Shown here piece by piece: positions 3,423 to 16,387 of a DNA stretch of 33,512 nucleotides. Source of the DNA: Methylococcales bacterium (GTDB lineage: Bacteria > Pseudomonadota > Gammaproteobacteria > Methylococcales > Methylomonadaceae); the NCBI GenBank assembly GCA_028713055.1, contig JAQTOX010000013.1:1-33512 (forward strand). Direction: 5' to 3'. Both the position numbers and the translations under genes were made by a program. Numbering within the stretch: the first letter of the stretch is position 1; every line of letters starts with the position of its first letter. The notes below the pieces were generated by a model. It had not been told where the DNA came from and searched no databases. It worked only from the letters and a program-made list of their open reading frames with translations.

Positions 3423-5714
3423 ATGAGTAAAAGTCTTGTCATTGTTGAATCGCCTGCTAAGGCTAAAACCATTGAAAAGTATTTGGGCAAGGATTTTCAC
3501 GTCCTCGCGTCTTACGGTCACGTCCGCGATTTAGTACCCAAAGAAGGCGCAGTTGATACACAAAATGATTTCGCTATGCGATATGAAGTGATTGAACGCA
3601 ATCACCGCCATGTTCAAGCAATTACCAAAGCATTAAAAACCTCCGACACACTTTATTTAGCGACCGATCCAGATCGTGAAGGTGAAGCGATTTCGTGGCA
3701 TTTGTTGGAATTATTAAACGAGAAAAACTTACTAAAAAATAAAACAGTTCATCGTGTTGCCTTTCATGAAATCACTAAAAAAGCAGTGATGGAGGCAATT
3801 GCAGCACCTGCAGAACTGAATTACAACATGGTTCACGCGCAACAAGCCCGACGCGCTTTAGATTATTTGGTGGGGTTTAAGTTGTCACCGTTGTTGTGGA
3901 AAAAAATTCGACGTGGTTTGTCGGCGGGTCGGGTACAAAGTCCTGCGTTACGGTTGATTGTAGAACGTGAATTAGAAATTGAAGCCTTCAAAAGTCGTGA
4001 ATACTGGTCAGTCGATGCCGCCGTTTTCGCACTCGAACAAGCATTTAAAGCGAAACTCACTTATTTTTCTGGCGAAAAAATGTCACAGTTCAGCATTCCT
4101 AATGCTGATTTAGCAACACTCACGCGACAAGTGTTACTCGATGAGGCAAAGGGAGAATTAACAGTTGCTAAACTGGAAAAGAAACAACGCAAAAGTAATC
4201 CTGCGCCGCCATTCATCACATCTACATTGCAACAAGAAGCCGCACGCAAACTCGGTTTTACGACGAAACGGACGATGACGGTTGCTCAACAACTTTATGA
4301 AGGCATTGATATTGGCGGCGAAACGGCGGGCTTGATTACTTATATGCGTACCGATTCGGTCAATTTATCAGTGGAAGCCGTAGATGATATTCGCACGTTG
4401 ATCGCCGAAACGTATGGGGCAGAGAATGTACCCAAAGACCCCATCATCTATAAAACCAAATCAAAAAATGCACAAGAAGCCCATGAAGCTGTGCGTCCGA
4501 CTTCAGCGCGATATTTACCGAGTCAAATTCAACCGTTTTTATCCGCTGAACAATTCAAACTTTACGAATTGATTTGGAAACGGACGATTGCTTGCCAAAT
4601 GATTCACGCGACTTTGAATAGTGTGGCGATTGATTTGAGTTGTGCGAATAACAAACACGTTTTTCGGGCAACTGGTTCATCGATTGCAAATCCTGGTTTT
4701 ATGGCAGTTTATTTAGAAGGCAAAGATGATTCTAAAGAGAGCGACGATAAAGAAAATTTTCTACCCGCATTAAAAGAAGGCGATGTTGTCAAATTAAACG
4801 ATGTGATAATCGCGCAGCATTTCACCGAACCACCACCGCGTTATGGCGAAGCGAGTTTGGTTAAAGCGTTAGAAGAGCATGGCATCGGTCGTCCTTCAAC
4901 TTATGCGTCAATTATTTCAACGTTGCAAAATCGAGAATATGTCACGCTCGAAACTAAACGTTTTCATCCAACAGACGTTGGACGAATTGTAAATAAATTT
5001 TTGACAGAACATTTCACAAAATACGTTGATTACGATTTTACGGCGAATTTAGAAGATGATTTGGATGCCGTAGCACGAGGCGAAAAAGAGTGGATCCCTT
5101 TAATGCACAGTTTTTGGAAACCGTTTGGTGAATTGGTCATCGAAAAAGAAACCTCCGTACAGCGCAAAGATGTTACGCAAGAAGCGATTGACGAACTTTG
5201 TCCACAATGCGGCAAAGCGTTGTCGATTCGATTGGGGCGTAATGGACGTTTTATTGGTTGTACTGACTATCCGACCTGTGATTACACACGTAATTTAACG
5301 GATTCTGCGACGCTTGAACCCGAACTTGTTGAAGGGCGCGAATGTCCAGAATGTGCATCGGCACTGGTTTATAAAAGTAGTAAATTTGGAAAATTCATTG
5401 GTTGTACTGGCTATCCCGATTGTCGCTATATTGAACCCATCGAAAAACCTATCGATACTGGTGTGCGCTGTCCACAATGTAATAAAGGACAAATTTTCAA
5501 ACGCAAAGCACGTAGCGGGAAAGTATTTTATTCGTGTGAAAATTATCCAAAGTGTGATTACGCGCTGTGGAATACACCACTCAAAGAGGTTTGCCCGACA
5601 TGTCACTGGCCATTATTGACATTGAAAGAAAGTAAAAAACGAGGTACGGAGAAAGTCTGCCCACAAAAAAATTGTAATTATGTGGAAGCCGTTGAAATGA
5701 ACGAGGTGGAATAA
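3423..5714 (+). CDS. topA: DNA topoisomerase I (type IA)
   Basis: Type IA topoisomerase, which relaxes negatively supercoiled DNA by nicking one strand through a tyrosine. The 763-residue protein starts with a Toprim domain (SLVIVESPAKAKTIEKYLG, then ATDPDREGEAISWH). The catalytic tyrosine is in LITYMRTDS at about residue 307. The carboxyl region has four zinc-ribbon-type segments: three regular ones of the form CPxC...C with a YPxC end (from about residue 597), and a last one, CPTC...CPQKNC. E. coli TopA has 865 residues, so this copy is somewhat shorter at the carboxyl end. AGGGA lies upstream of ATG. A strong hairpin follows the stop. Confidence 0.97.
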   Translation: MSKSLVIVESPAKAKTIEKYLGKDFHVLASYGHVRDLVPKEGAVDTQNDFAMRYEVIERNHRHVQAITKALKTSDTLYLATDPDREGEAISWHLLELLNEKNLLKNKTVHRVAFHEITKKAVMEAIAAPAELNYNMVHAQQARRALDYLVGFKLSPLLWKKIRRGLSAGRVQSPALRLIVERELEIEAFKSREYWSVDAAVFALEQAFKAKLTYFSGEKMSQFSIPNADLATLTRQVLLDEAKGELTVAKLEKKQRKSNPAPPFITSTLQQEAARKLGFTTKRTMTVAQQLYEGIDIGGETAGLITYMRTDSVNLSVEAVDDIRTLIAETYGAENVPKDPIIYKTKSKNAQEAHEAVRPTSARYLPSQIQPFLSAEQFKLYELIWKRTIACQMIHATLNSVAIDLSCANNKHVFRATGSSIANPGFMAVYLEGKDDSKESDDKENFLPALKEGDVVKLNDVIIAQHFTEPPPRYGEASLVKALEEHGIGRPSTYASIISTLQNREYVTLETKRFHPTDVGRIVNKFLTEHFTKYVDYDFTANLEDDLDAVARGEKEWIPLMHSFWKPFGELVIEKETSVQRKDVTQEAIDELCPQCGKALSIRLGRNGRFIGCTDYPTCDYTRNLTDSATLEPELVEGRECPECASALVYKSSKFGKFIGCTGYPDCRYIEPIEKPIDTGVRCPQCNKGQIFKRKARSGKVFYSCENYPKCDYALWNTPLKEVCPTCHWPLLTLKESKKRGTEKVCPQKNCNYVEAVEMNEVE

Positions 5715-5725
5715 GAATTTGTGAC

Positions 5726-5752
5726 GTAATCACGGCATGTTGCCGTGATTAC
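5726..5752. terminator. Hairpin between topA and the convergent receiver gene
   Basis: GTAATCACGGCA and TGCCGTGATTAC form a perfect 12-base-pair stem around a TGT loop. It sits 11 bases after the topA stop and 14 bases before the end of the opposing gene, so it can serve both strands. A clear T run is missing on either side, so termination strength is uncertain. Confidence 0.75.
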
Positions 5753-5766
5753 CTTAAATTGATGAA

Positions 5767-6162
5767 TTAACCGGCTTTTAGTTTTGCAACTAATTGGTTA
5801 ATCAAATTATCGGGCTTGAAAGGTTTAACAATGTAGGACGTAATGCCGACTGAAATTGCTTCTTTTACTTTGTCGCCATCTGAAGAGGATGTCAGCATAA
5901 TCCAAGGTGGAGTCGCTAATTTTTCGTCATCTTTAACCGCTTGATACAATTCGATGCCGCTCATGCCAGGCATGTTCCAGTCACAAATGACCACATTGAT
6001 TTTAACTTTCGCCATCATCATCAATGCTTCACGTCCGCCAGGAACGTCAAAAACGTGTGCAAAACCCGCCTCACGCAAAATCGCTTTTGTTAACGTCCGC
6101 ATTGACGCTGCATCATCAACAATAAGAATTTTTTTTTGTAACATTTCGGGTGATATATCCAT
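5767..6162 (-). CDS. CheY-like single-domain response regulator
   Basis: This is a stand-alone 131-residue receiver domain with no output domain. It is expected to pass a phosphoryl signal to another protein by binding. The acidic pocket (D16, D17), phosphoacceptor D61 in VVICDWNMPG, the TSS switch (IMLTSSSD) and the conserved lysine in YIVKPFKP are all present, so it should be phosphorylatable. A good Shine-Dalgarno (AGGAAAGGAAAATG) supports the start. No kinase gene is adjacent on this strand. The nearest candidate is the CheA-like kinase about 3 kb away, and pairing with it is speculative. It is transcribed away from the FAD dehydrogenase gene. Confidence 0.93.
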   Translation of the reverse strand: MDISPEMLQKKILIVDDAASMRTLTKAILREAGFAHVFDVPGGREALMMMAKVKINVVICDWNMPGMSGIELYQAVKDDEKLATPPWIMLTSSSDGDKVKEAISVGITSYIVKPFKPDNLINQLVAKLKAG

Positions 6163-6432
6163 TTTCCTTTCCTAAAGCTATGTAGTTAATTTAATTTCGC
6201 GGTGCATCGCACTATGATGGTTCGAACCGCATTTTACAATAGTTACGAATTTCTCAAAAAAATTCTAAGATTCTCCGTACATACAGCACCGATAACCTGT
6301 CAGTACTTCTCCTCAAAAGGAAGTATGAGCATTATAAACGATACATTAACATCATCAAACGGTTGCTTTTAGCAATAGATGTTTGAACGCAAAACAATAA
6401 CCTTTTTAACAATAATCACTAACCTGAAATTT
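6163..6432. promoter_or_regulatory. Divergent intergenic region with a 10-base palindrome
   Basis: This 270-base region separates two divergently transcribed genes and should hold both promoters. A perfect palindrome GGTTCGAACC occurs at 6219-6228. The wider segment is flanked by GCGGT (6199-6203) and ACCGC (6226-6230), which could pair. No convincing -35/-10 pair could be assigned by eye. The palindrome resembles a tRNA T-arm but no tRNA fold surrounds it. Confidence 0.35.
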
Positions 6433-8034
6433 ATGCTGAGAATTACTGAATTAAAACTCCCACTCAATCACTCTGTTAGCGACATACAATCTGCTGTGCT
6501 TTATCGGCTAGGTGTCGATTTAAATGAATTTATTAGCTACAAAATTTTTCGTCAGGGTCACGATGCGCGAAAACGTGATGCAATTCAAATGGTTTACACT
6601 GTTGATGTGGACATAAAAAATGAGGCTGAAGTATTAGCGCGTTTTACCAATGACATTCACATTAGTTCAACGCCAAATACCGAATATCATTTACCACTAA
6701 ATATCGTGGCTCTCAATAAAGCTCGCCCAATCATTATCGGTTCTGGTCCATGCGGTTTATTAGCAACGTTGATTTTAGCGCAAATGGGTTTCAGACCTAT
6801 TATGTTAGAACGGGGTAAATCGGTTCGTGAACGCACCAAAGACACGTTTGCATTGTGGCGAAAAGGTAAATTTAATGCCGAATCAAATGTCCAATTTGGC
6901 GAAGGCGGCGCAGGCACTTTTTCCGATGGCAAACTTTACACTCAAATCAAAGACCCGAATTATTACGGTCGGAAAGTATTACAAGAATTCGTCAAAGCAG
7001 GCGCACCCGAAGAAATTTTATATTTAAGCAAACCTCATATTGGTACGTTTCGTTTGGTTTCGATGGTTGAACAAATTCGCGCCACTATTGAATCGTTGGG
7101 CGGCGAGATTCGTTTTGAACATCGTGTCGACGAATTACTCATTGAAAACGGACAAGTGCAAGGCGTGAAATTAGCGACGGGTGAAACGCTTGAAAGTCAG
7201 CATGTTGTTTTGGCAATTGGTCACAGCGCACGCGATACGTTTTCAATGTTGCAACGTAATGGTGTTTATATGGAAGCAAAACCCTTTTCGATGGGGTTTC
7301 GTATCGAACATCCACAATCATTGATTGACCAATGTCGTTTTGGTAGCCACGCCGGACATCCATTATTGGGTGCGGCAGATTATAAACTGGTGCATCACTG
7401 CAAAAATGGAAGATCGGTTTATAGTTTTTGTATGTGTCCAGGTGGTACAGTCGTTGCCGCAACGTCGGAAGCTGGTCATGTTGTCACTAACGGCATGAGC
7501 CAGTATTCACGTAACGAACGTAATGCCAATAGCGCAATCGTGGTTGGTATTACACCTGAAGTCGATTATCCGCAGCATGTTTTAGCGGGTGTAGATTTAC
7601 AGCGGCATTGGGAGCGACAAGCATTTTTGTTAGGTGGTGAAAATTACGCTGCTCCAGCACAATTAGTGGGTGATTTTTTGGCTGGACAAGCATCAACAAA
7701 ATTCGGAACTGTTGAACCGTCTTACACGCCGTCTGTTAAATTAGGAAATTTAAGTGCTGCCCTACCCGATTATGCGATTGCTGCTATTCGTGAAGCATTA
7801 CCCATGTTTGATAGAAAAATAAAAGGTTTTGCCATGCACGACGCACTGTTGACGGCAGTTGAAACGCGAACATCATCGCCTGTTCGAATTAAACGTAACG
7901 AGCAATTCCAGAGTTTAAATACCCTCGGTTTATATCCTGCTGGCGAAGGTGCCGGCTACGCGGGTGGTATTTTATCTGCGGCAATTGACGGCATTAAAGT
8001 TGCCGAAGCCGTGGCGCGTGCCATGCAAAGTTAG
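6433..8034 (+). CDS. FAD-dependent dehydrogenase (COG2509-type NAD(P)/FAD oxidoreductase)
   Basis: This is a predicted flavin-dependent oxidoreductase of the large, biochemically uncharacterised family often annotated as FAD-dependent dehydrogenase. The substrate is unknown. I place the start at the ATG at 6433, because MLRITELKLPLNHS is the usual N-terminus of the family; an upstream ATG at 6379 in frame would add 18 unusual residues. Length is then 533 residues. After a mixed N-terminal domain there is a Rossmann dinucleotide motif (IIIGSGPCGLLATL, about residues 98-111), ERGKSVRERTKDTFALW, and FGEGGAGTFSDGKLYT, which are typical of this family. Near the end, GLYPAGEGAGYAGGILSAAIDG matches the second FAD-contacting segment. 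No signal peptide is seen. A G/C-rich hairpin follows the stop. Confidence 0.9.
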   Translation: MLRITELKLPLNHSVSDIQSAVLYRLGVDLNEFISYKIFRQGHDARKRDAIQMVYTVDVDIKNEAEVLARFTNDIHISSTPNTEYHLPLNIVALNKARPIIIGSGPCGLLATLILAQMGFRPIMLERGKSVRERTKDTFALWRKGKFNAESNVQFGEGGAGTFSDGKLYTQIKDPNYYGRKVLQEFVKAGAPEEILYLSKPHIGTFRLVSMVEQIRATIESLGGEIRFEHRVDELLIENGQVQGVKLATGETLESQHVVLAIGHSARDTFSMLQRNGVYMEAKPFSMGFRIEHPQSLIDQCRFGSHAGHPLLGAADYKLVHHCKNGRSVYSFCMCPGGTVVAATSEAGHVVTNGMSQYSRNERNANSAIVVGITPEVDYPQHVLAGVDLQRHWERQAFLLGGENYAAPAQLVGDFLAGQASTKFGTVEPSYTPSVKLGNLSAALPDYAIAAIREALPMFDRKIKGFAMHDALLTAVETRTSSPVRIKRNEQFQSLNTLGLYPAGEGAGYAGGILSAAIDGIKVAEAVARAMQS

Positions 8035-8035
8035 G

Positions 8036-8078
8036 ACTTTGACATCCACCCCCGCCTAAAAAGCGGGGGATTCCTCAG
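8036..8078 (-). repeat. Solitary IS200/IS605-like right-end sequence (putative relic)
   Basis: Read on the minus strand, the sequence runs GAGGAATC, a G/C-rich hairpin with CTTTTTAG-type loop, then TGGATGTCAA. From memory this matches the common 3' end of tnpB-bearing IS200/IS605 elements, where a GGAATC-hairpin-GGATGTCA structure forms the element end and the scaffold of the guide-like RNA. No tnpA or tnpB lies nearby: the response regulator gene ends 7 bases beyond. It is therefore a relic, a short non-autonomous copy, or a convergent look-alike. Confidence 0.45.
8049..8069. terminator. G/C-rich hairpin between convergent genes
   Basis: CCCCCGC (8049-8055) pairs perfectly with GCGGGGG (8063-8069) around a CTAAAAA loop. 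It lies 14 bases after the FAD dehydrogenase stop and 15 bases before the end of the opposing five-gene operon, so it can act as a bidirectional terminator. Its sequence looks like an insertion-sequence end, suggesting co-option. Confidence 0.7.
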
Positions 8079-8084
8079 TGTAAA

Positions 8085-8489
8085 TCAAAAAAATTGTAAC
8101 TTGATAGGTCTTTTGCACATTTTCTGAATCGTCTCATACACCTTCTGTTGCTGAAATGGTTTTAATATATAGCCTTTTGCCCCTGCTTTTAACGCATTAA
8201 GTACCATTGCCTCCTGCCCATGTGATGTGACCATCACAATTCTTGCCTCAGGAAATTCGCCCATAATCGCTTGCGTCGCCTCAATGCCATCCATTTCTGG
8301 CATCGTAATATCCATCGTGACTACATCAGGTTTGCAAATTTTATAAGCTTCGACCGCTTCTTTGCCATTTGCCGCTGTCTGAATAACTCTATATCCCAAC
8401 CCGTCTAACAGCATACTCAGTTTTTTAACAATAATTGGTGAATCATCAACTACTAAAATATCAAGTACCGTATTATTCAAAATATCCAT
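8085..8489 (-). CDS. CheY-like response regulator, last gene of the pqqE operon
   Basis: This is a single receiver domain of 134 residues. The start at 8489 is chosen because the preceding GTGAGGACATG gives a GAGG box 5 bases before this ATG; an in-frame start at 8543 would overlap the upstream gene by 38 bases. D15, D16 and phosphoacceptor D60 (VVTMDITMPEMDG) are present, with the VTSHG switch threonine/serine region and YILKPF lysine. There is no DNA-binding or enzymatic output domain, so it likely acts by protein contact or as a phosphate sink. It follows the CheX-like gene by 16 bases, and the kinase two genes upstream is its natural phosphodonor. A short KRPIKLQFF tail ends the protein. 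Confidence 0.93.
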   Translation of the reverse strand: MDILNNTVLDILVVDDSPIIVKKLSMLLDGLGYRVIQTAANGKEAVEAYKICKPDVVTMDITMPEMDGIEATQAIMGEFPEARIVMVTSHGQEAMVLNALKAGAKGYILKPFQQQKVYETIQKMCKRPIKLQFF

Positions 8490-8505
8490 CATGTCCTCAC
8501 TGTAT

Positions 8506-9015
8506 TCAAAAAACTGTATCAAATAGCTCTTGCGAACCCACAAGACTAATCGTCATACCGCCCAATGGCGTACTTAAACTCTGCGCGTAAAACATTTTAC
8601 ATTTCATAGCTCGAATTACGTTTACATCTTTTAAAATTCGCGGCGGCGTAATGCTGATGCCATTTTTATCGAGTCTCAATAAATCTATGGTCGAATGCCC
8701 TAGAACAGTGTTAATCACGTCCCCTGCGGCGGCTTTACGATACGTTTCAACTTCGTGATCTTCAATACTTAACCCATCTATCATTTTACGATAAATCGCG
8801 TTAATTAAAGACGCTTCAAAACTAAAAACCACCAATAGATTTATTTTTCCCCCCATAATAATAACTACCGTCATATCAAGCAAAACAAGCGCATCTAATT
8901 TTCCACTGACACTGTTGCATTCAGTAGTTTCAATTCCGAATTCGCTTTTAAAATACGCGTATGTCCTTTTTGTTACTGATTCCATGACTTCAATAATGAG
9001 TTGTTTTTCTGACAC
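8506..9015 (-). CDS. CheX-like domain protein (putative CheY-phosphate phosphatase or adaptor)
   Basis: This 169-residue cytoplasmic protein has the CheX/CheC-type pattern. CheX proteins speed loss of phosphate from CheY-like receivers, using a glutamate and an asparagine four positions apart. Here the matching helix reads AAAGDVINTVLGH, with D99 and N102, so the usual glutamate is replaced by aspartate. The later ISITPPRIL segment matches the conserved TP strand. The start is GTG at 9015, supported by AGAGG about 7 bases upstream. It sits between a CheA-like kinase gene (26-base gap) and a CheY-like gene (16-base gap), exactly the partners expected. Activity as a phosphatase is uncertain because of the E-to-D change. 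Confidence 0.75.
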   Translation of the reverse strand: MSEKQLIIEVMESVTKRTYAYFKSEFGIETTECNSVSGKLDALVLLDMTVVIIMGGKINLLVVFSFEASLINAIYRKMIDGLSIEDHEVETYRKAAAGDVINTVLGHSTIDLLRLDKNGISITPPRILKDVNVIRAMKCKMFYAQSLSTPLGGMTISLVGSQELFDTVF

Positions 9016-9041
9016 CCTAAACCTCTTTGTTTAATTTTTTT

Positions 9042-11240
9042 TTATTGTAATGGTAAGGTAAATAAGAATTGTGTCCCTTGTCCGACAACTGTTTTAACTG
9101 TCAAATCGCCGCCTATATTTTTCGTTTCATTTAACACTGCCGCTAAACCTACACCGCGTCCTGCTAATTCTGTCACTTCTTGTTGTGTACTGACATTGTC
9201 CATAAAAATGAATTTGATGATTTCTTCATCTGAAAACGCTGCAACTTCATCAGCAGTATAAATTCCTGCTGTGATAACTTTTTCACGCAACGCTTCAAGA
9301 TTGATTCCCGCACCATCATCTGCAATCGTTAATTTAATTGCATCGCCGACAATAGCAACGTAACAAGTAATTTTTCCCACCTCATCTTTATCCATTTCCC
9401 AACGCACTTCAGGACTTTCGATACCATGCGCCACCGTGTTGCGAAACACATGAACCAATGAACGCAAAAATGCCTGATAAGCACACGGATCTATCCAAAT
9501 ATCCGAACCGCCTTTCACCACAATCGGCGCGACTTCTTTTTCCATCCGTTCAGCTGCTTGTTGAACTAGCCCATTAAATCCCATTAGCACATCTTTAAAT
9601 GACACTTTGCGTAGCGTACTGATTTCATTGAGTAGTTTTCTCACCTCTGAAATCGACGTATCGACCGCTTCGCCACACAATAAACGATAAGCAAGTTTTT
9701 CCATTTGCAACGCCTGTTCGCAGGTCAAAACGATGCTTTCGCCATGAGCAAGGAATTTATCGCCAAGGGCTTTAGACAAGATAGAAAGATCTTCATTAAA
9801 AGGAATTTGAAGCATGCCTGATGAAATAATATCTGTAATTTGCTGATATGTGAGTGTATCGCCCAGCGTAAGCAAGTTTGATAAATGGCTTTCAATTTCA
9901 TGCAGAATTTTTGGTGTATTCGGAAAACTAAATTGGTTCAATAAACCTTTGTAAGTATGAATTTCGCGGTAAAGTTCTTTCGCCAGTATTTGTGGTGACA
10001 TTGAATCGCTTAACATTTGTGGCAATTCTTGGGATAAAAACTTGCGGAAGGCTTCAACAAGATCAAAGAAATTGCGACTATCGGAAATTGCTAAAACAAT
10101 CAATTCAAGATGCAGACGTTCTTTGTCCAACATCGCCGCAATCTGTCGTTCTTGCGTAATATCGGTTAAAACGACCATGAATTTATCGTGTTCGAGAATT
10201 TTATATTCGGCTTTCAGAATTAGCTCGTTGTGTTGGATTTCTGCCGGCAACAACGACAACATATTTTCACGCACAAATTCGTCAGTCTCATTTTGCACCG
10301 ATGAAATAATCGTATTGAACAAATCAGTTTTCGTTTTATCGTCATGAAAAAATACCTCGGCGGCATATTTACCTGCTGGAATCTCCCCCAACATACTTTC
10401 ACAAGCACGACTGTATTCGTTATCGATAATTAAATTCGTACCAAAAGACAAAAATCCTTGCCCTGAATTATCAAGTAAACTCCTGAAATCTTTGTTGGCA
10501 CGTTCCAATTCGGTGGTCATAGCGCGAATAAAATTCATCAATCGAAACACAAATGGCAATGTAATTAGAATAACAACCAGCGATGCAATAAAAATAGTGA
10601 AAATATATTGCAGTTGATGCTCTCGAATACTTTTTGCAGACACATCAATTCCGACAACAGCATCAAGCTTACCTGAAGATGTAAAAATAGGCGCATAAGC
10701 CGACAACCAGACTCCCCAATCATCCGTATAAATTTCAGGTTCAATATGTATTTCATTATTTTCGGGTGTTGCATTAAAAACACTGGCAAATTCTTCTGTG
10801 ATTTCCTCGCTGGGATAAATATCACCCGTCGCATTTACATCTTTTTTTGAACCATCGACGACAAAAACAAAATTTCCGTTATCCAATTTTCGCATGGTAT
10901 AGGCATTGGCGATTTCTGTGCCGTGTTCACGCATATCCCATAATTTACTTACCAATTTGATGTATGACTCTTTTGTATCATCTTCAACCGTTTGAATTTT
11001 GCTGTGCAAATCACCATCAATTTCTTTAGCCATCATCGTGACGACATCGTGGATTCTTAAACGTAATTCGTCTCGCAAAAATCGATCGACTTGAATGGAC
11101 GTTACAACGGTTAAAATCAAAATTCCCATCATCGTTAACCCGCAAAGCGAATAGGTTATTGATGTGACAGTATATTTTTTGGTCTTTGCTGTTTTATTGC
11201 GGCGAGGAACTTTTTGAATGTCTGCGGGTATTTTTTTCAT
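9042..11240 (-). CDS. Membrane-bound CheA-like sensor histidine kinase with Hpt domain
   Basis: Predicted inner-membrane sensor kinase of 732 residues. The start is the ATG at 11240; a longer frame to 11333 would run into the preceding gene. Order of parts: basic cytoplasmic N-terminus; membrane segment (about 28-48); an extracytoplasmic domain of about 160 residues resembling a Cache/PDC sensor (YTDDWGVWLSAYAPIF, VVGIDVSAKSI); a second membrane segment (about 211-232); a PAS-like region; an Hpt-like helix bundle with REIHTYKG (H428); then a CheA-type ATPase with N601 (FRNTVAHGIE), DDGAGIN and GRGVGLAAVL. There is no classical DHp H-box, and no CheW-like domain at the end. It likely phosphorylates its own H428 and then the CheY-like protein encoded two genes downstream. 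The ligand is unknown. Confidence 0.88.
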   Translation of the reverse strand: MKKIPADIQKVPRRNKTAKTKKYTVTSITYSLCGLTMMGILILTVVTSIQVDRFLRDELRLRIHDVVTMMAKEIDGDLHSKIQTVEDDTKESYIKLVSKLWDMREHGTEIANAYTMRKLDNGNFVFVVDGSKKDVNATGDIYPSEEITEEFASVFNATPENNEIHIEPEIYTDDWGVWLSAYAPIFTSSGKLDAVVGIDVSAKSIREHQLQYIFTIFIASLVVILITLPFVFRLMNFIRAMTTELERANKDFRSLLDNSGQGFLSFGTNLIIDNEYSRACESMLGEIPAGKYAAEVFFHDDKTKTDLFNTIISSVQNETDEFVRENMLSLLPAEIQHNELILKAEYKILEHDKFMVVLTDITQERQIAAMLDKERLHLELIVLAISDSRNFFDLVEAFRKFLSQELPQMLSDSMSPQILAKELYREIHTYKGLLNQFSFPNTPKILHEIESHLSNLLTLGDTLTYQQITDIISSGMLQIPFNEDLSILSKALGDKFLAHGESIVLTCEQALQMEKLAYRLLCGEAVDTSISEVRKLLNEISTLRKVSFKDVLMGFNGLVQQAAERMEKEVAPIVVKGGSDIWIDPCAYQAFLRSLVHVFRNTVAHGIESPEVRWEMDKDEVGKITCYVAIVGDAIKLTIADDGAGINLEALREKVITAGIYTADEVAAFSDEEIIKFIFMDNVSTQQEVTELAGRGVGLAAVLNETKNIGGDLTVKTVVGQGTQFLFTLPLQ

Positions 11241-11277
11241 GAGAAATACTTCGATTTTGTAGTTCGAAAAATGTGGA

Positions 11278-12669
11278 TTAAAACGTAAACGTGGCAGTGA
11301 GGAAACCTTGTAACCAAACTTTGTTACCCTCACCTAAATATTGTTTACTTGCTGCACTGGGTACAAACGCTTCGAGACCTGTTGAAAATTCTAACGCATC
11401 ACTAAATTCCCAATCTGCCAATAAATTCACTTCATTACCATAATTTGCCGAAGTCAGTGCAAAGGCAGCAGGATTTACAAATGTAAAATTGATGTAAATT
11501 AAATTGAGCGTGACGCTTTCAACCGGAGTCACAATGAGTCTGCCGACGTGTGTAACTAAATTGGAATTATCTAGCATCCATTCCCCCGTAATTTCGCCCT
11601 GGAACCATGTTCCCCACGTTCCAAAACCAGGTGACATACTGTCAAAACCTTCGCCTTGAATCGCGTAACGGTAACTTATTGCGGGTTGCCAAAATAAATC
11701 TTCACGCTTGTATTCAATTTGCCCGAAACCACCAGACGCATGAATTTTTGTTTTATCAATGAATTCGGTTGTAGCAATTTTGGTTGAATTGATTTGATAG
11801 GCGTATTCCGTACTGATAGTAAAATTTTCCAATGGCGAAAATTCAACTCGCGCATTGTAAGTATCGTTATCTAACCCTTGTTTACCGAGTGAATCGGTTG
11901 AACCGTCGTCATGCAGAGAACGTTTATTGCCAGTTTTAATGTAACTTAAAGCGAAATGGGTGCTATCCGAATACGCATATTCAAGGTTTGCGCCTTGATA
12001 ACTTCTTTTTTCGGCGGGATTAAGCGGTCGCGTTTCTAAATAAAAACCTTCTAATTTTATGGCTTCAAAATTAAATCGTCCAAGTATCGTATTGTTAAAA
12101 GCGGTTCGCGGATTTATCCAACCCGCGCCACGATTACCGCCATTATCTGCCCCGTAATTTAATAAAAAGCCAGAACCTAATTTATAGTTTTGTCTGCCAC
12201 CAGATAAATCAACGGTAATTTTTTCATCTTCGTCCAATAATTTCCCCGACTTCCAGCCTAAATATAATTCTTCCGTTTTATTTTTATAATGATAGTTATC
12301 ATAACGTCCTAGAGTGGTGTAATCGGTTTCTTGAAGATACATATCAACACCTTTTTGCGTATAACCCGATGGATCATGCCCTAGCGTGCTGCTATAAACA
12401 TAACTAAAACCACCGTACAGTTTGCTGTCGTTAAATAAATTTAACGACGCATTTAAATACGGTTTTGCACTAAGTTCCCAAAAATAATCGGTGAGATTCG
12501 CTTTCGCAGCCCCCCCCGCTTGATTATTAACATCCCCGAATATCGCCGTTTGAATTTGTAAACCGGCTGACAATTCACCATGATCACCTTCGTAAAATGA
12601 ATAGTCGGCACTCGCAATGGTTGTAAAAACCGTGATGAAAATACCGACGAAAATACGACGGTTAATCAC
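11278..12669 (-). CDS. Outer-membrane beta-barrel protein (porin-like, alginate-export-type)
   Basis: Predicted outer-membrane barrel of 463 residues. It starts with a signal peptide (MINRRIFVGIFITVFTTIASA, cleavage probable before D22) and ends in ATFTF, the C-terminal phenylalanine expected by the BAM assembly machinery. Between them are many alternating strands rich in Tyr, Gly and Asn, with tyrosine/aromatic girdles typical of substrate-specific porins or the alginate-export family. The start is GTG and overlaps the last 8 bases of pqqE, so translation is probably coupled. What crosses the barrel is not evident. Coupling to pqqE hints at a PQQ-related, peptide or alcohol substrate, but this is inference. 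The sensor kinase follows after 37 bases. Confidence 0.85.
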   Translation of the reverse strand: MINRRIFVGIFITVFTTIASADYSFYEGDHGELSAGLQIQTAIFGDVNNQAGGAAKANLTDYFWELSAKPYLNASLNLFNDSKLYGGFSYVYSSTLGHDPSGYTQKGVDMYLQETDYTTLGRYDNYHYKNKTEELYLGWKSGKLLDEDEKITVDLSGGRQNYKLGSGFLLNYGADNGGNRGAGWINPRTAFNNTILGRFNFEAIKLEGFYLETRPLNPAEKRSYQGANLEYAYSDSTHFALSYIKTGNKRSLHDDGSTDSLGKQGLDNDTYNARVEFSPLENFTISTEYAYQINSTKIATTEFIDKTKIHASGGFGQIEYKREDLFWQPAISYRYAIQGEGFDSMSPGFGTWGTWFQGEITGEWMLDNSNLVTHVGRLIVTPVESVTLNLIYINFTFVNPAAFALTSANYGNEVNLLADWEFSDALEFSTGLEAFVPSAASKQYLGEGNKVWLQGFLTATFTF

Positions 12670-14068: not shown

Positions 14069-14599
14069 ATGTTTGAAATTGAATACGAATTCCGCGAAGA
14101 AGATTTAATCCACTTTAATGAAGTGCAATTTACCCGTAATGAAGACATCCAAAGCAACATCCGCAAAAACCGTTGGATTGTGCCAGCCGTGATGGCATTG
14201 ATTGGTGGGTTTTATTATTTTTATTATGGCGATCAAAATTCTGCCGCCTATATTCTTGTGATTGCCATGTTATGGGGTTGGTTATCGCCAAAAGTGATGA
14301 TGCTTGATTTACGTCGTCAGATTCTCGCTAACTATACCCACAAAGAAAAAAACGCGATGTTTGGCACTTACACGCTAACCATTGACCCTGAACAACCTCA
14401 GTATTTATTAGAAAAGTCACCCAGCGGTAAACATAAAATGTTGTGGTCGGATTTGGTGCGTGTCGAATACAGCAAGCATTACGTCTACATTTATATCAGT
14501 TTAGCGACGGCGTTAGTGATTCCCATCGAAACAGTCAAAAGTGGTGACGTGAAAGCGTTTGCTAAACAAGCTGAACAAATGATTGAACGGGCGGCGTAA
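14069..14599 (+). CDS. YcxB-like membrane protein
   Basis: This 176-residue protein has two close membrane segments (about residues 36-52 and 57-74) after a short cytoplasmic N-terminus beginning MFEIEYEFREEDLIHF. The remainder is a cytoplasmic beta-rich domain with GTYTLTID, MLWSDLVRVEYSKHYVYIYIS and a final VIPIETV segment. This layout, with a transmembrane hairpin followed by the w-x-d-l and y-i-y strands, matches YcxB-like (PF14317-type) proteins, whose function is unknown. It is transcribed divergently from pqqE, and a weak hairpin follows. I see no functional link to the neighbours. Confidence 0.75.
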   Translation: MFEIEYEFREEDLIHFNEVQFTRNEDIQSNIRKNRWIVPAVMALIGGFYYFYYGDQNSAAYILVIAMLWGWLSPKVMMLDLRRQILANYTHKEKNAMFGTYTLTIDPEQPQYLLEKSPSGKHKMLWSDLVRVEYSKHYVYIYISLATALVIPIETVKSGDVKAFAKQAEQMIERAA

Positions 14600-14707: not shown

Positions 14708-16387
14708 ATGTCATTCATGTTGATGGAACCGACTAACCAAACTTTTCAGGAACTTATTGGAAACGGTGTGAAATATCAAGTTCCCAGATTTCAAAGGGAT
14801 TACGCTTGGGATAAAGCACAATGGGAAGATTTATGGGGCGATATTGAAACCATTGAAGAAGAGCATTATCACTACATGGGTTACATTGTGCTTCAGCGTA
14901 AAAGCCAGCACGATTTTGAAGTTGTCGATGGTCAACAACGTTTGATTACGCTTTCTTTAGTGATTTTGGCGGCAATGAAAAATATTCAATTGTTAATTAA
15001 CAAGGAAAATGAAACGGCTGAGAATATAGAGCGATTGCGTGTTTTAACAGAGCGTTACATTGGTTCTAAGAACCCGATTTCGCTCAGAGTAGATAGTAAG
15101 TTGTCGTTAAATCGTAATAACAGCGCGAATTTCAAAGAAATTTGTTCTCACTTAGAATCACTGACTAAACGCGGTCAAACCAATACGAATAAATTACTCA
15201 ATAAATGTTTCAAATTTTTTGAATCCAAAAAAATGGGAAACACAGGTCAAGAAATTGCCGAATTTATTGAACGTGTTTCGTCAGGCATGATTTTTACTAA
15301 AATTGTCGTGCAAGATGATTTGAACGCTTACAAAGTATTTGAAACATTGAATGCTCGCGGTGTGCAATTATCTACCCCCGATTTATTAAAAAATTATATT
15401 TTTTCAATTGTTACCAAAGACAATCCTATTGCGGATGACGAACTTAATGAACTTGATGAAAATTGGTCAGAAATCGTTGAACAACTTGGTGAAAGTAATT
15501 TCACGGATTTCATTCGCTACCATCACAATTTTCAAGCCTCGCTGGTTACCAAAAAAGATTTGTTTTCGTCGGTGCGAAAATTAGCTAATACACCAGAAAA
15601 AGCTTACGCTTATCTTCGTTCTTTGAGTAAATACGCGCCTGTTTATGCGTCATTATTGAATCCACACGATGAGTGGTGGGCAAATCAAGATGTCGCTTAT
15701 CGAGAAGTCAAAAAATACTTGGAAGGCTTTGAATTATTTAATATCAAACAACCATTCACCATTTTTATGGCAGCATTTTATGATTTTTCGCCTGAAGAAT
15801 TTATCAAACTCACGCGCTATTTTTACGTTTTAACAATTAGATATAATGTCATTTGTCACCATTCACCTAACGAACAAGAATCCACTTACAACAAGTTAGC
15901 AATAAAAATACATTCAAAAGAATATATTCGAGCCAGCCACGTTAAAAATAGCGAAATTTTTAAAAAATTATATCCAGACGATAATGCTTTTTTTAATGCG
16001 TTCCAGTTTCACAAAATGCCAAGCAAACAATCTAGTAAAAAAATACGATTTCTGTTGGCAGAAATAGAAACTTATTTAGGACATGCAACTGATTCTTCAA
16101 AAGTGACGCTGGAACACATTTGTCCATACAATCCAGATGAACATTGGAATGATTATTTTGGTGAAGGCGTTAATGATATTCAAGATCGCTTGGGTGACGT
16201 GATATTACTCGAAACAGATGAATTAAAAAGAGCAAATTTTGCAGAAAAAAAACAGGCTTATTTACAGACTCATTATCCATTGGCAAAAAAAATAGCCTCT
16301 TATGAAAAATGGAATTTACAGAATTTAAATGACTACCAGACGTGGCTATCAAAGCAAGCTGTAGAAACATGGAAGGTTTCGTTTTAA
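14708..16387 (+). CDS. DUF262/DUF1524 protein, GmrSD-type putative restriction nuclease
   Basis: Proteins with DUF262 followed by DUF1524 include the type IV restriction enzyme GmrSD, which cuts phage DNA carrying modified bases. Many homologues are defence proteins. The 559-residue chain shows the DUF262 nucleotide-dependent part, with VPRFQRDYAW (about 25-34) and VDGQQRLITL (D74-R78). The DUF1524 HNH-like part has LEHICPYNP (E469, H470, P473, N475), then GDVILL and the FAEKKQAY end that closes this domain. Both parts are fused in one chain. The start has a GAGAG box about 7 bases upstream. It stands alone, with no methylase or partner nearby, between a membrane protein gene and an ABC-F gene. 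Substrate specificity cannot be inferred. Confidence 0.87.
   Translation: MSFMLMEPTNQTFQELIGNGVKYQVPRFQRDYAWDKAQWEDLWGDIETIEEEHYHYMGYIVLQRKSQHDFEVVDGQQRLITLSLVILAAMKNIQLLINKENETAENIERLRVLTERYIGSKNPISLRVDSKLSLNRNNSANFKEICSHLESLTKRGQTNTNKLLNKCFKFFESKKMGNTGQEIAEFIERVSSGMIFTKIVVQDDLNAYKVFETLNARGVQLSTPDLLKNYIFSIVTKDNPIADDELNELDENWSEIVEQLGESNFTDFIRYHHNFQASLVTKKDLFSSVRKLANTPEKAYAYLRSLSKYAPVYASLLNPHDEWWANQDVAYREVKKYLEGFELFNIKQPFTIFMAAFYDFSPEEFIKLTRYFYVLTIRYNVICHHSPNEQESTYNKLAIKIHSKEYIRASHVKNSEIFKKLYPDDNAFFNAFQFHKMPSKQSSKKIRFLLAEIETYLGHATDSSKVTLEHICPYNPDEHWNDYFGEGVNDIQDRLGDVILLETDELKRANFAEKKQAYLQTHYPLAKKIASYEKWNLQNLNDYQTWLSKQAVETWKVSF

Follow-up and report, generated by a model that had tools for sequence, protein, structure and literature searches.

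A candidate membrane sensor kinase on a CheA-type catalytic core, with adjoining CheX and CheY genes, in a Methylococcales bacterium

Can the catalytic core of CheA work under a membrane sensor of its own, outside a chemoreceptor array? This question is raised by a gene on contig JAQTOX010000013.1 of a Methylococcales bacterium (assembly GCA_028713055.1), of which we analyzed a stretch of 33,512 nucleotides (the window). An earlier note, made from the letters of the window, had proposed that the gene encodes a Cache-like sensor, an Hpt histidine, and a CheA-type ATPase in one chain lacking a CheW-like end. We conclude that the protein is probably a membrane sensor kinase on a CheA catalytic core, freed from chemoreceptor arrays and provided with its own CheX and CheY. 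The part of this conclusion that is read from sequence comprises the predicted Hpt and P4 domains, the lack of a CheW or HisKA match, the conserved catalytic residues, the kinase-CheX-CheY set, and the swapped inputs; we infer the phosphotransfer steps, dimerization, what CheY acts on, whether flagellar motor, type IV pilus, or something else, and the non-involvement of the receptor array.

Architecture of the kinase

The open reading frame of the kinase was confirmed; it was listed from a GTG at 11333, and starting from the ATG at 11240 it encodes 732 amino acids. The features of the kinase gene, with the evidence for each, are as follows:

9042..11240, minus strand: CheW-less CheA-core sensor kinase, 732 aa (open reading frame, profile and PDB matches, alignment, model)
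11112..11168, minus strand: transmembrane segment 1, residues 25-43 (hydropathy)
10605..11111, minus strand: extracytoplasmic sensor domain, residues 44-212, Cache-like at best (model, homologue profile scans)
10548..10604, minus strand: transmembrane segment 2, residues 213-231 (hydropathy)
10161..10487, minus strand: conserved PAS-like linker domain, residues 252-360 (strand and helix order in a confident part of the model, by eye)
9765..10079, minus strand: Hpt/P1-type helical bundle, residues 388-492, H428 codon at 9957-9959 (profile, alignment, model)
9621..9722, minus strand: short helical hairpin in the position of CheA P3, residues 507-540 (low-confidence part of the model)
9048..9608, minus strand: CheA-type P4 ATPase, residues 545-731, N601 codon at 9438-9440 (NCBIfam, PDB, structure and profile comparison)

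The order is therefore TM1, outer domain, TM2, PAS-like domain, Hpt with H428, and CheA-type P4, and the chain ends one residue past P4. Two transmembrane segments, Hpt, and P4 within 732 residues bear out, at the level of sequence, the proposal that sensor and CheA core share one chain. The PAS-like domain, a CheX gene at 8506-9015 (minus strand), a porin-like neighbor, and the existence of a kinase family go beyond what the earlier note had described.

The P4 assignment draws on several comparisons. Residues 594-731 match Pfam HATPase_c significantly (E 1.9e-11), and residues 535-731 match NCBIfam CheA_Halo (E 2e-41) at 142 bits, far below the whole-protein cut-off of 950 for that model, as expected for a part of CheA. 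The best PDB match is a CheA P3P4 structure (4xiv, E 3.3e-27), and in our family-guided structure model, whose confidence was read as pLDDT, P4 is mostly confident and superimposes on CheA P4 over 174 residues (Z 23.5, rmsd 1.8). Matches to P4 and other ATPases took up the VIA and Foldseek lists shown for the models, which so said little about the sensor, the PAS-like part, or Hpt; a viral fold search returned general histidine kinases.

The Hpt match of the single window sequence is weak (Pfam E 0.026, below the cut-off). Built from nine members, an Hpt-segment profile matches the CheA P1 structures 2ld6 and 1tqg at about 4e-5, outranked in the PDB search by two designed helical bundles that we take to derive from CheA P1; the relative L047 exceeds the Pfam Hpt cut-off, and residues 388-492 form a confident helical bundle in the model. 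H428 and N601 are invariant, and the H and N boxes kept, in all 19 members of the alignment, which are 33-75% identical to the window kinase. These members keep the G-boxes as well, except that L117 and L118 have GQG where GRG is expected and L047 has DNGGG. Together, the profiles, PDB matches, and alignment uphold the proposed Hpt histidine and the CheA-like ATPase with N601, and H428 is the putative phospho-acceptor of the Hpt domain. Between these two domains, Pfam found no P3 (H-kinase_dim) match; residues 507-540 form in its place a low-confidence hairpin, and the profile alignment with CheA begins only at the hairpin's end.

The layout of a two-TM sensor followed by a PAS-like domain is typical of ordinary sensor kinases, and the protein could be one of these with its DHp domain misread as Hpt. 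We searched for such a domain as a refutation test, and no HisKA-type match was found in the window kinase by Pfam at E values up to 1. Given also that the Hpt profile finds CheA P1 and that P4 matches CheA far above other kinases, we regard the misreading as highly improbable, and a DHp/HisKA reading is refuted as far as profiles reach.

A CheW-like C terminus was ruled out by a six-frame Pfam search of the whole genome (97% complete), which found 11 CheW domains, three of them in three ordinary CheAs on contigs C132, C66, and C47, and none on the contig of the window (C88). With the chain stopping at P4, the expected absence of a CheW-like end held. The tail past P4 measures 0-15 residues in 24 of the 25 rows labeled family I in our P4 tree, the other row, L122, carrying CheX, and at least 134 residues in the 47 CheAs. 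Rows received the family I label by this tail (L122 by hand), and the tree grouped the 25 afterwards.

The earlier note had called the sensor Cache-like. The membrane-anchored outer domain stands, a stretch of 169 residues between the two transmembrane segments that also occurs on a cyclase and on other kinases. Its Cache identity is unproven: dCache_1 matched two of 11 homologues (best E 0.038, weak), a profile search returned no related PDB chain, and model confidence over residues 44-212 is pLDDT 31-73 by 10-residue blocks. A plain PAS label for residues 252-360 was dropped, since Pfam gave no PAS match in the 11 members scanned and a profile of the domain gave no related match in the PDB. 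We keep the term PAS-like for what the model suggests.

CheX, CheY, and other genes at the locus

Three further genes on the kinase's strand adjoin or lie close to it:

8506..9015, minus strand: predicted CheX-type CheY-P phosphatase, GTG start, D99xxN102 (Pfam, family profile, motif alignment)
8085..8489, minus strand: CheY-type single-domain receiver, ATG at 8489 (Pfam, PDB matches)
11278..12669, minus strand: porin-like gene directly upstream of the kinase (outer-membrane barrel reading by eye)

The CheX gene begins 26 nucleotides past the kinase stop and lies between kinase and CheY. Its product matches Pfam CheX (E 2.7e-8), and the family profile matches Thermotoga maritima CheX (1xko, E 6.5e-8). 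It is the only CheX over the cut-off in the genome; one weaker match, on contig C117, falls below it. The E-x-x-N motif is the active site of CheX phosphatases. In the alignment the asparagine (N102) does not vary; the acidic position holds D in the window protein and E in some relatives. By profile, this is the same domain as in T. maritima CheX (1xko/1squ) and the CheX/CheC phosphatases, with the E/DxxN motif in place; it differs from them by having D for E, and its partner is a sensor kinase, not a CheA bound to an array. The receiver matches Pfam Response_reg (E 4.3e-31), and its best PDB matches are chains named CheY, among them that of T. maritima. A second stand-alone receiver (5767-6162, Pfam) lies on the same strand about 2 kb beyond CheY, an arrangement shared by G010 and G011.

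The porin-like gene has no match in Pfam or NCBIfam. It was found near carriers of the window-type sensor in ten genomes of the genus, a count that includes G007, whose sensor half is on another contig, and L046, where the kinase output is different. It is missing beside L044, which has lost the sensor, and L047, in which the sensor is replaced; it was also not seen beside the sensor-bearing L049 and L052, nor beside L045, which is cut at a contig end. This distribution suggests that the gene may provide the ligand to the sensor. Beyond pqqE, the window contains a GmrSD-type restriction gene (14708-16387) adjoining a YcxB-like protein (14069-14599).

The kinase family, its inputs, and a second CheW-less lineage

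We surveyed genomes from Pseudomonadota with a profile of the kinase core. In the phylum sample the best nonmembers, which are CheAs, score at most 165 bits; complete members score at least 343 bits, and pieces of members score down to 202. The family occurs in at least two of 398 genomes drawn from Pseudomonadota (a raw tally of 140 in this sample includes CheAs), at least six of 369 genomes of the class, at least 16 of 311 genomes of the window organism's order, and at least three of 199 genomes of another family of the class. These counts are lower bounds, with up to three (phylum), four (class), five (order), and seven (other family) candidates scored per genome; the samples overlap, and the window's own genome was counted where drawn. 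Together they yielded at least 27 loci in 23 genomes. L055, the only locus from the genome-collection scan with the single protein as query, is by its length and gene positions the same contig as L035 and was left out. The survey of homologues suggested by the earlier note showed the order input, PAS-like domain, Hpt, and P4, with no CheW, to be common to members from the 23 genomes, among which the G003 member breaks off where its contig ends, that of G007 is split over two contigs, and that of G967 is degenerate.

Kinase, CheX, and CheY are adjacent in 23 of the 25 assessable loci, counting the window, G007, and G1109; L040, at a contig end, and L114, a fragment with a stop, could not be assessed. 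In G1109, CheX is fused to the C terminus of the kinase (Pfam E 2.6e-5, just below the cut-off; profile E 1.1e-21). The exceptions are L112, with no CheX or CheY downstream and its upstream side cut by a contig end, and the distant member L133, where none was seen with about 600 nucleotides covered upstream.

L133 (6388-8442) has, by eye, Arg at the position of the phospho-His and degenerate G-boxes, and is possibly a pseudokinase. Its N terminus has no Pfam match, and a CBS-like reading of it, not borne out by Pfam, was dropped. The decay seen in L133, together with the weak Pfam Hpt match, raises the question whether the window kinase is itself a decayed or regulatory CheA fragment whose P4 or Hpt is defunct, with Hpt phosphorylated by another kinase. 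We consider this unlikely, given the H and N boxes kept throughout the 19-member alignment across its range of identities and the maintenance of the cassette at several chromosomal sites: it lies beside pqqE in several genomes and elsewhere in G001/G015, G008, and G014. A kinase with a working CheA-type core remains our preferred reading.

On this core, which by sequence is constant, inputs are swapped across the family. They consist of the window-type sensor itself, NMT1 plus three SBP_bac_3 domains (L047), NMT1 (L117, L118), four PAS domains in a chain that has no membrane segment (L086, L109, L110), one PAS (L112), a receiver (L131, L132), or a sensor with two TM segments to which Pfam gives no credible assignment (L111; L099, L113, L115, and L116 by likeness). 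In L044 (8315-10324, genome G009), the sensor is replaced by an N terminus in which two copies of a HisKA-like segment can be seen by eye (HisKA E 0.00042, below the cut-off), making it a possible HisKA-Hpt-P4 chimera. Conversely, one sensor is reused across output types in the genus. The window-type sensor is found on a cyclase (L049:2713-4410 by Pfam; L041:10038-11750 by eye), on a hybrid histidine kinase (L046:5310-8996 by Pfam; L045:158-3763 by likeness), and on a histidine kinase (L052:6292-8391 by eye).

A tree of P4 was built from 78 sequences comprising 25 family members, 47 CheAs, and six sequences of a second CheW-less lineage. A branch (100/100) separates the 25 family members from the 47 CheAs, and the six form a separate group (100/98) on the CheA side. 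The tree was midpoint-rooted for drawing only, contains several long branches, and drew a warning from the tool of possible false joins, so that a twofold origin is a reading of the tree and not proof.

The second lineage consists of four Burkholderiales plasmid records (L126-L129) and two genomes, one from the window's family and the other from its genus (L050/L027, L051), and it occurs in at least four of the 398 genomes of the phylum sample, with up to two candidates scored per genome. Among the 30 listed of 450 matches in a plasmid search, five span 80% or more of the core, with 23-27% identity; four of these fall in the second lineage, and the tree was built without the fifth (H2). The kinases of this lineage share the order sensor, Hpt, P4 with the window kinase, and their C-terminal tails measure 18-47 residues. 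The input differs, the L126 kinase having 4HB_MCP, HAMP, and Pfam PAS ahead of Hpt and P4. The L126 cluster (4167-9270) places a protein with an MCP signal domain beside a kinase without CheW; L128 (4206-7865), L129, and L050 belong to the same lineage. Neighbors in L126 include two CheX-like proteins, one weak (E 0.015) and the other over the cut-off (E 1.3e-9), and a CheY (by eye); one of the two CheX-like proteins has, by eye, a receiver-like N terminus. In L128, a reverse transcriptase gene and an avd gene of a diversity-generating retroelement (9518-11443) are annotated some 2-3 kb away from the kinase cluster, which is that of Ideonella.

Comparison with CheA, proposed mechanism, and output

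With CheA, the class II histidine kinase, the window kinase shares an Hpt with a putative phospho-His, a CheA-type P4 with the N-box HVFRN..HGIE, and the lack of HisKA. It differs by its own membrane sensor, its PAS-like domain, and the lack of CheW and of a P2 match, and it has only the short low-confidence hairpin in the position of P3. The survey by Berry, Andrianova, and Zhulin reports CheW in 100% of 13,673 CheA sequences and describes CheA without a sensor domain; its archaeal sequences were collected via the CheW domain (PMC10542144). The window kinase falls outside this definition, and we therefore do not call it CheA; it has the appearance of a CheA core that operates under a sensor. 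The survey also describes CheAs with fused CheC/CheX in Leptospirae, which are F1 CheAs and by the survey count have CheW (PMC10542144). As in G1109, kinase and CheY phosphatase are thereby joined in one chain; on that description, the Leptospirae fusions keep CheW, whereas the G1109 kinase has CheX in the position of CheW. With two-TM sensor histidine kinases of the HisKA/HATPase_c type, the window kinase shares an extracytoplasmic sensor, transmembrane segments, a linker domain, and a kinase in one chain, and it differs by its Hpt acceptor, its CheA P4, and CheY and CheX as neighbors in place of a DNA-binding regulator.

We propose that a ligand outside the inner membrane would bind the domain of residues 44-212, and that the signal would pass through TM2 and the PAS-like domain to the Hpt-hairpin-P4 core. 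By analogy with CheA, P4 would phosphorylate H428, probably in trans within a dimer. The phosphoryl group would then be transferred from H428 to the neighboring CheY, from which the neighboring CheX would strip it, allowing a quick reset. Three points count against this proposal: the P3-like hairpin is of low confidence, the CheX motif has D and not E, and L112, L133, and L044 are exceptions in the family.

The three ordinary CheAs and further CheW proteins of the genome mean that cross-talk with arrays is possible. The kinase could be a side input to ordinary chemotaxis, in which its CheY competes at the same motor or the canonical CheY is phosphorylated, so that the array is modulated and not bypassed; the receiver is of CheY type, and the genome has FliM. 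Across the 30 genomes tested FliM was found in 28, that is, in 21 of 23 carriers of the kinase and in all seven genus members in which no kinase was found, and within the genus it does not separate carriers (11/11) from noncarriers (7/7). The two carriers with no FliM match, G886 (88% complete) and G890 (99% complete), belong to one genus and both have the kinase-CheX-CheY triad, so it is probable that not all carriers have the flagellar motor as their target. If this absence is real, a flagellar target is not general. This, and the dedicated CheX and CheY that adjoin the kinase, with this CheX the genome's only one over the cut-off, lead us to consider a side input possible but rather doubtful.

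Alternatively, the output could be the type IV pilus or a surface behavior and not flagella. PilT was matched in 29 of the 30 genomes, including all 23 carriers and thus G886 and G890, as against the 21 carriers with FliM. PilT is also present in six of the seven genus members in which no triad kinase was found, the seventh being a 72%-complete genome; occurring in carriers and noncarriers alike, it does not discriminate. The window CheY moreover resembles chemotaxis CheYs, and we give a pilus output, like the side input, a minority share of our belief. As for the organism itself, the genome encodes a particulate monooxygenase-type subunit (AMO family) and pqqE, from which it is probably a methanotroph.

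Returning to an array-free kinase with its own CheX and CheY as the preferred reading, we found no description of a membrane sensor joined to Hpt and a CheA P4 without CheW in the open-licence literature searched. We tentatively suggest, at somewhat short of even confidence, that CheA cores lacking CheW, with freely exchanged built-in sensors and a CheX and CheY of their own, constitute a distinct class of chemosensory systems that work outside arrays and have at least two origins. In such systems a single protein would control motility or pili in the absence of chemoreceptors, CheW, and adaptation by methylation. For annotation, CheA surveys built on the CheW domain would miss CheW-less kinases of the window type. 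A natural family with P1 and P4, its own sensor, and no CheW would reveal on which of CheA's parts the control of the kinase depends.
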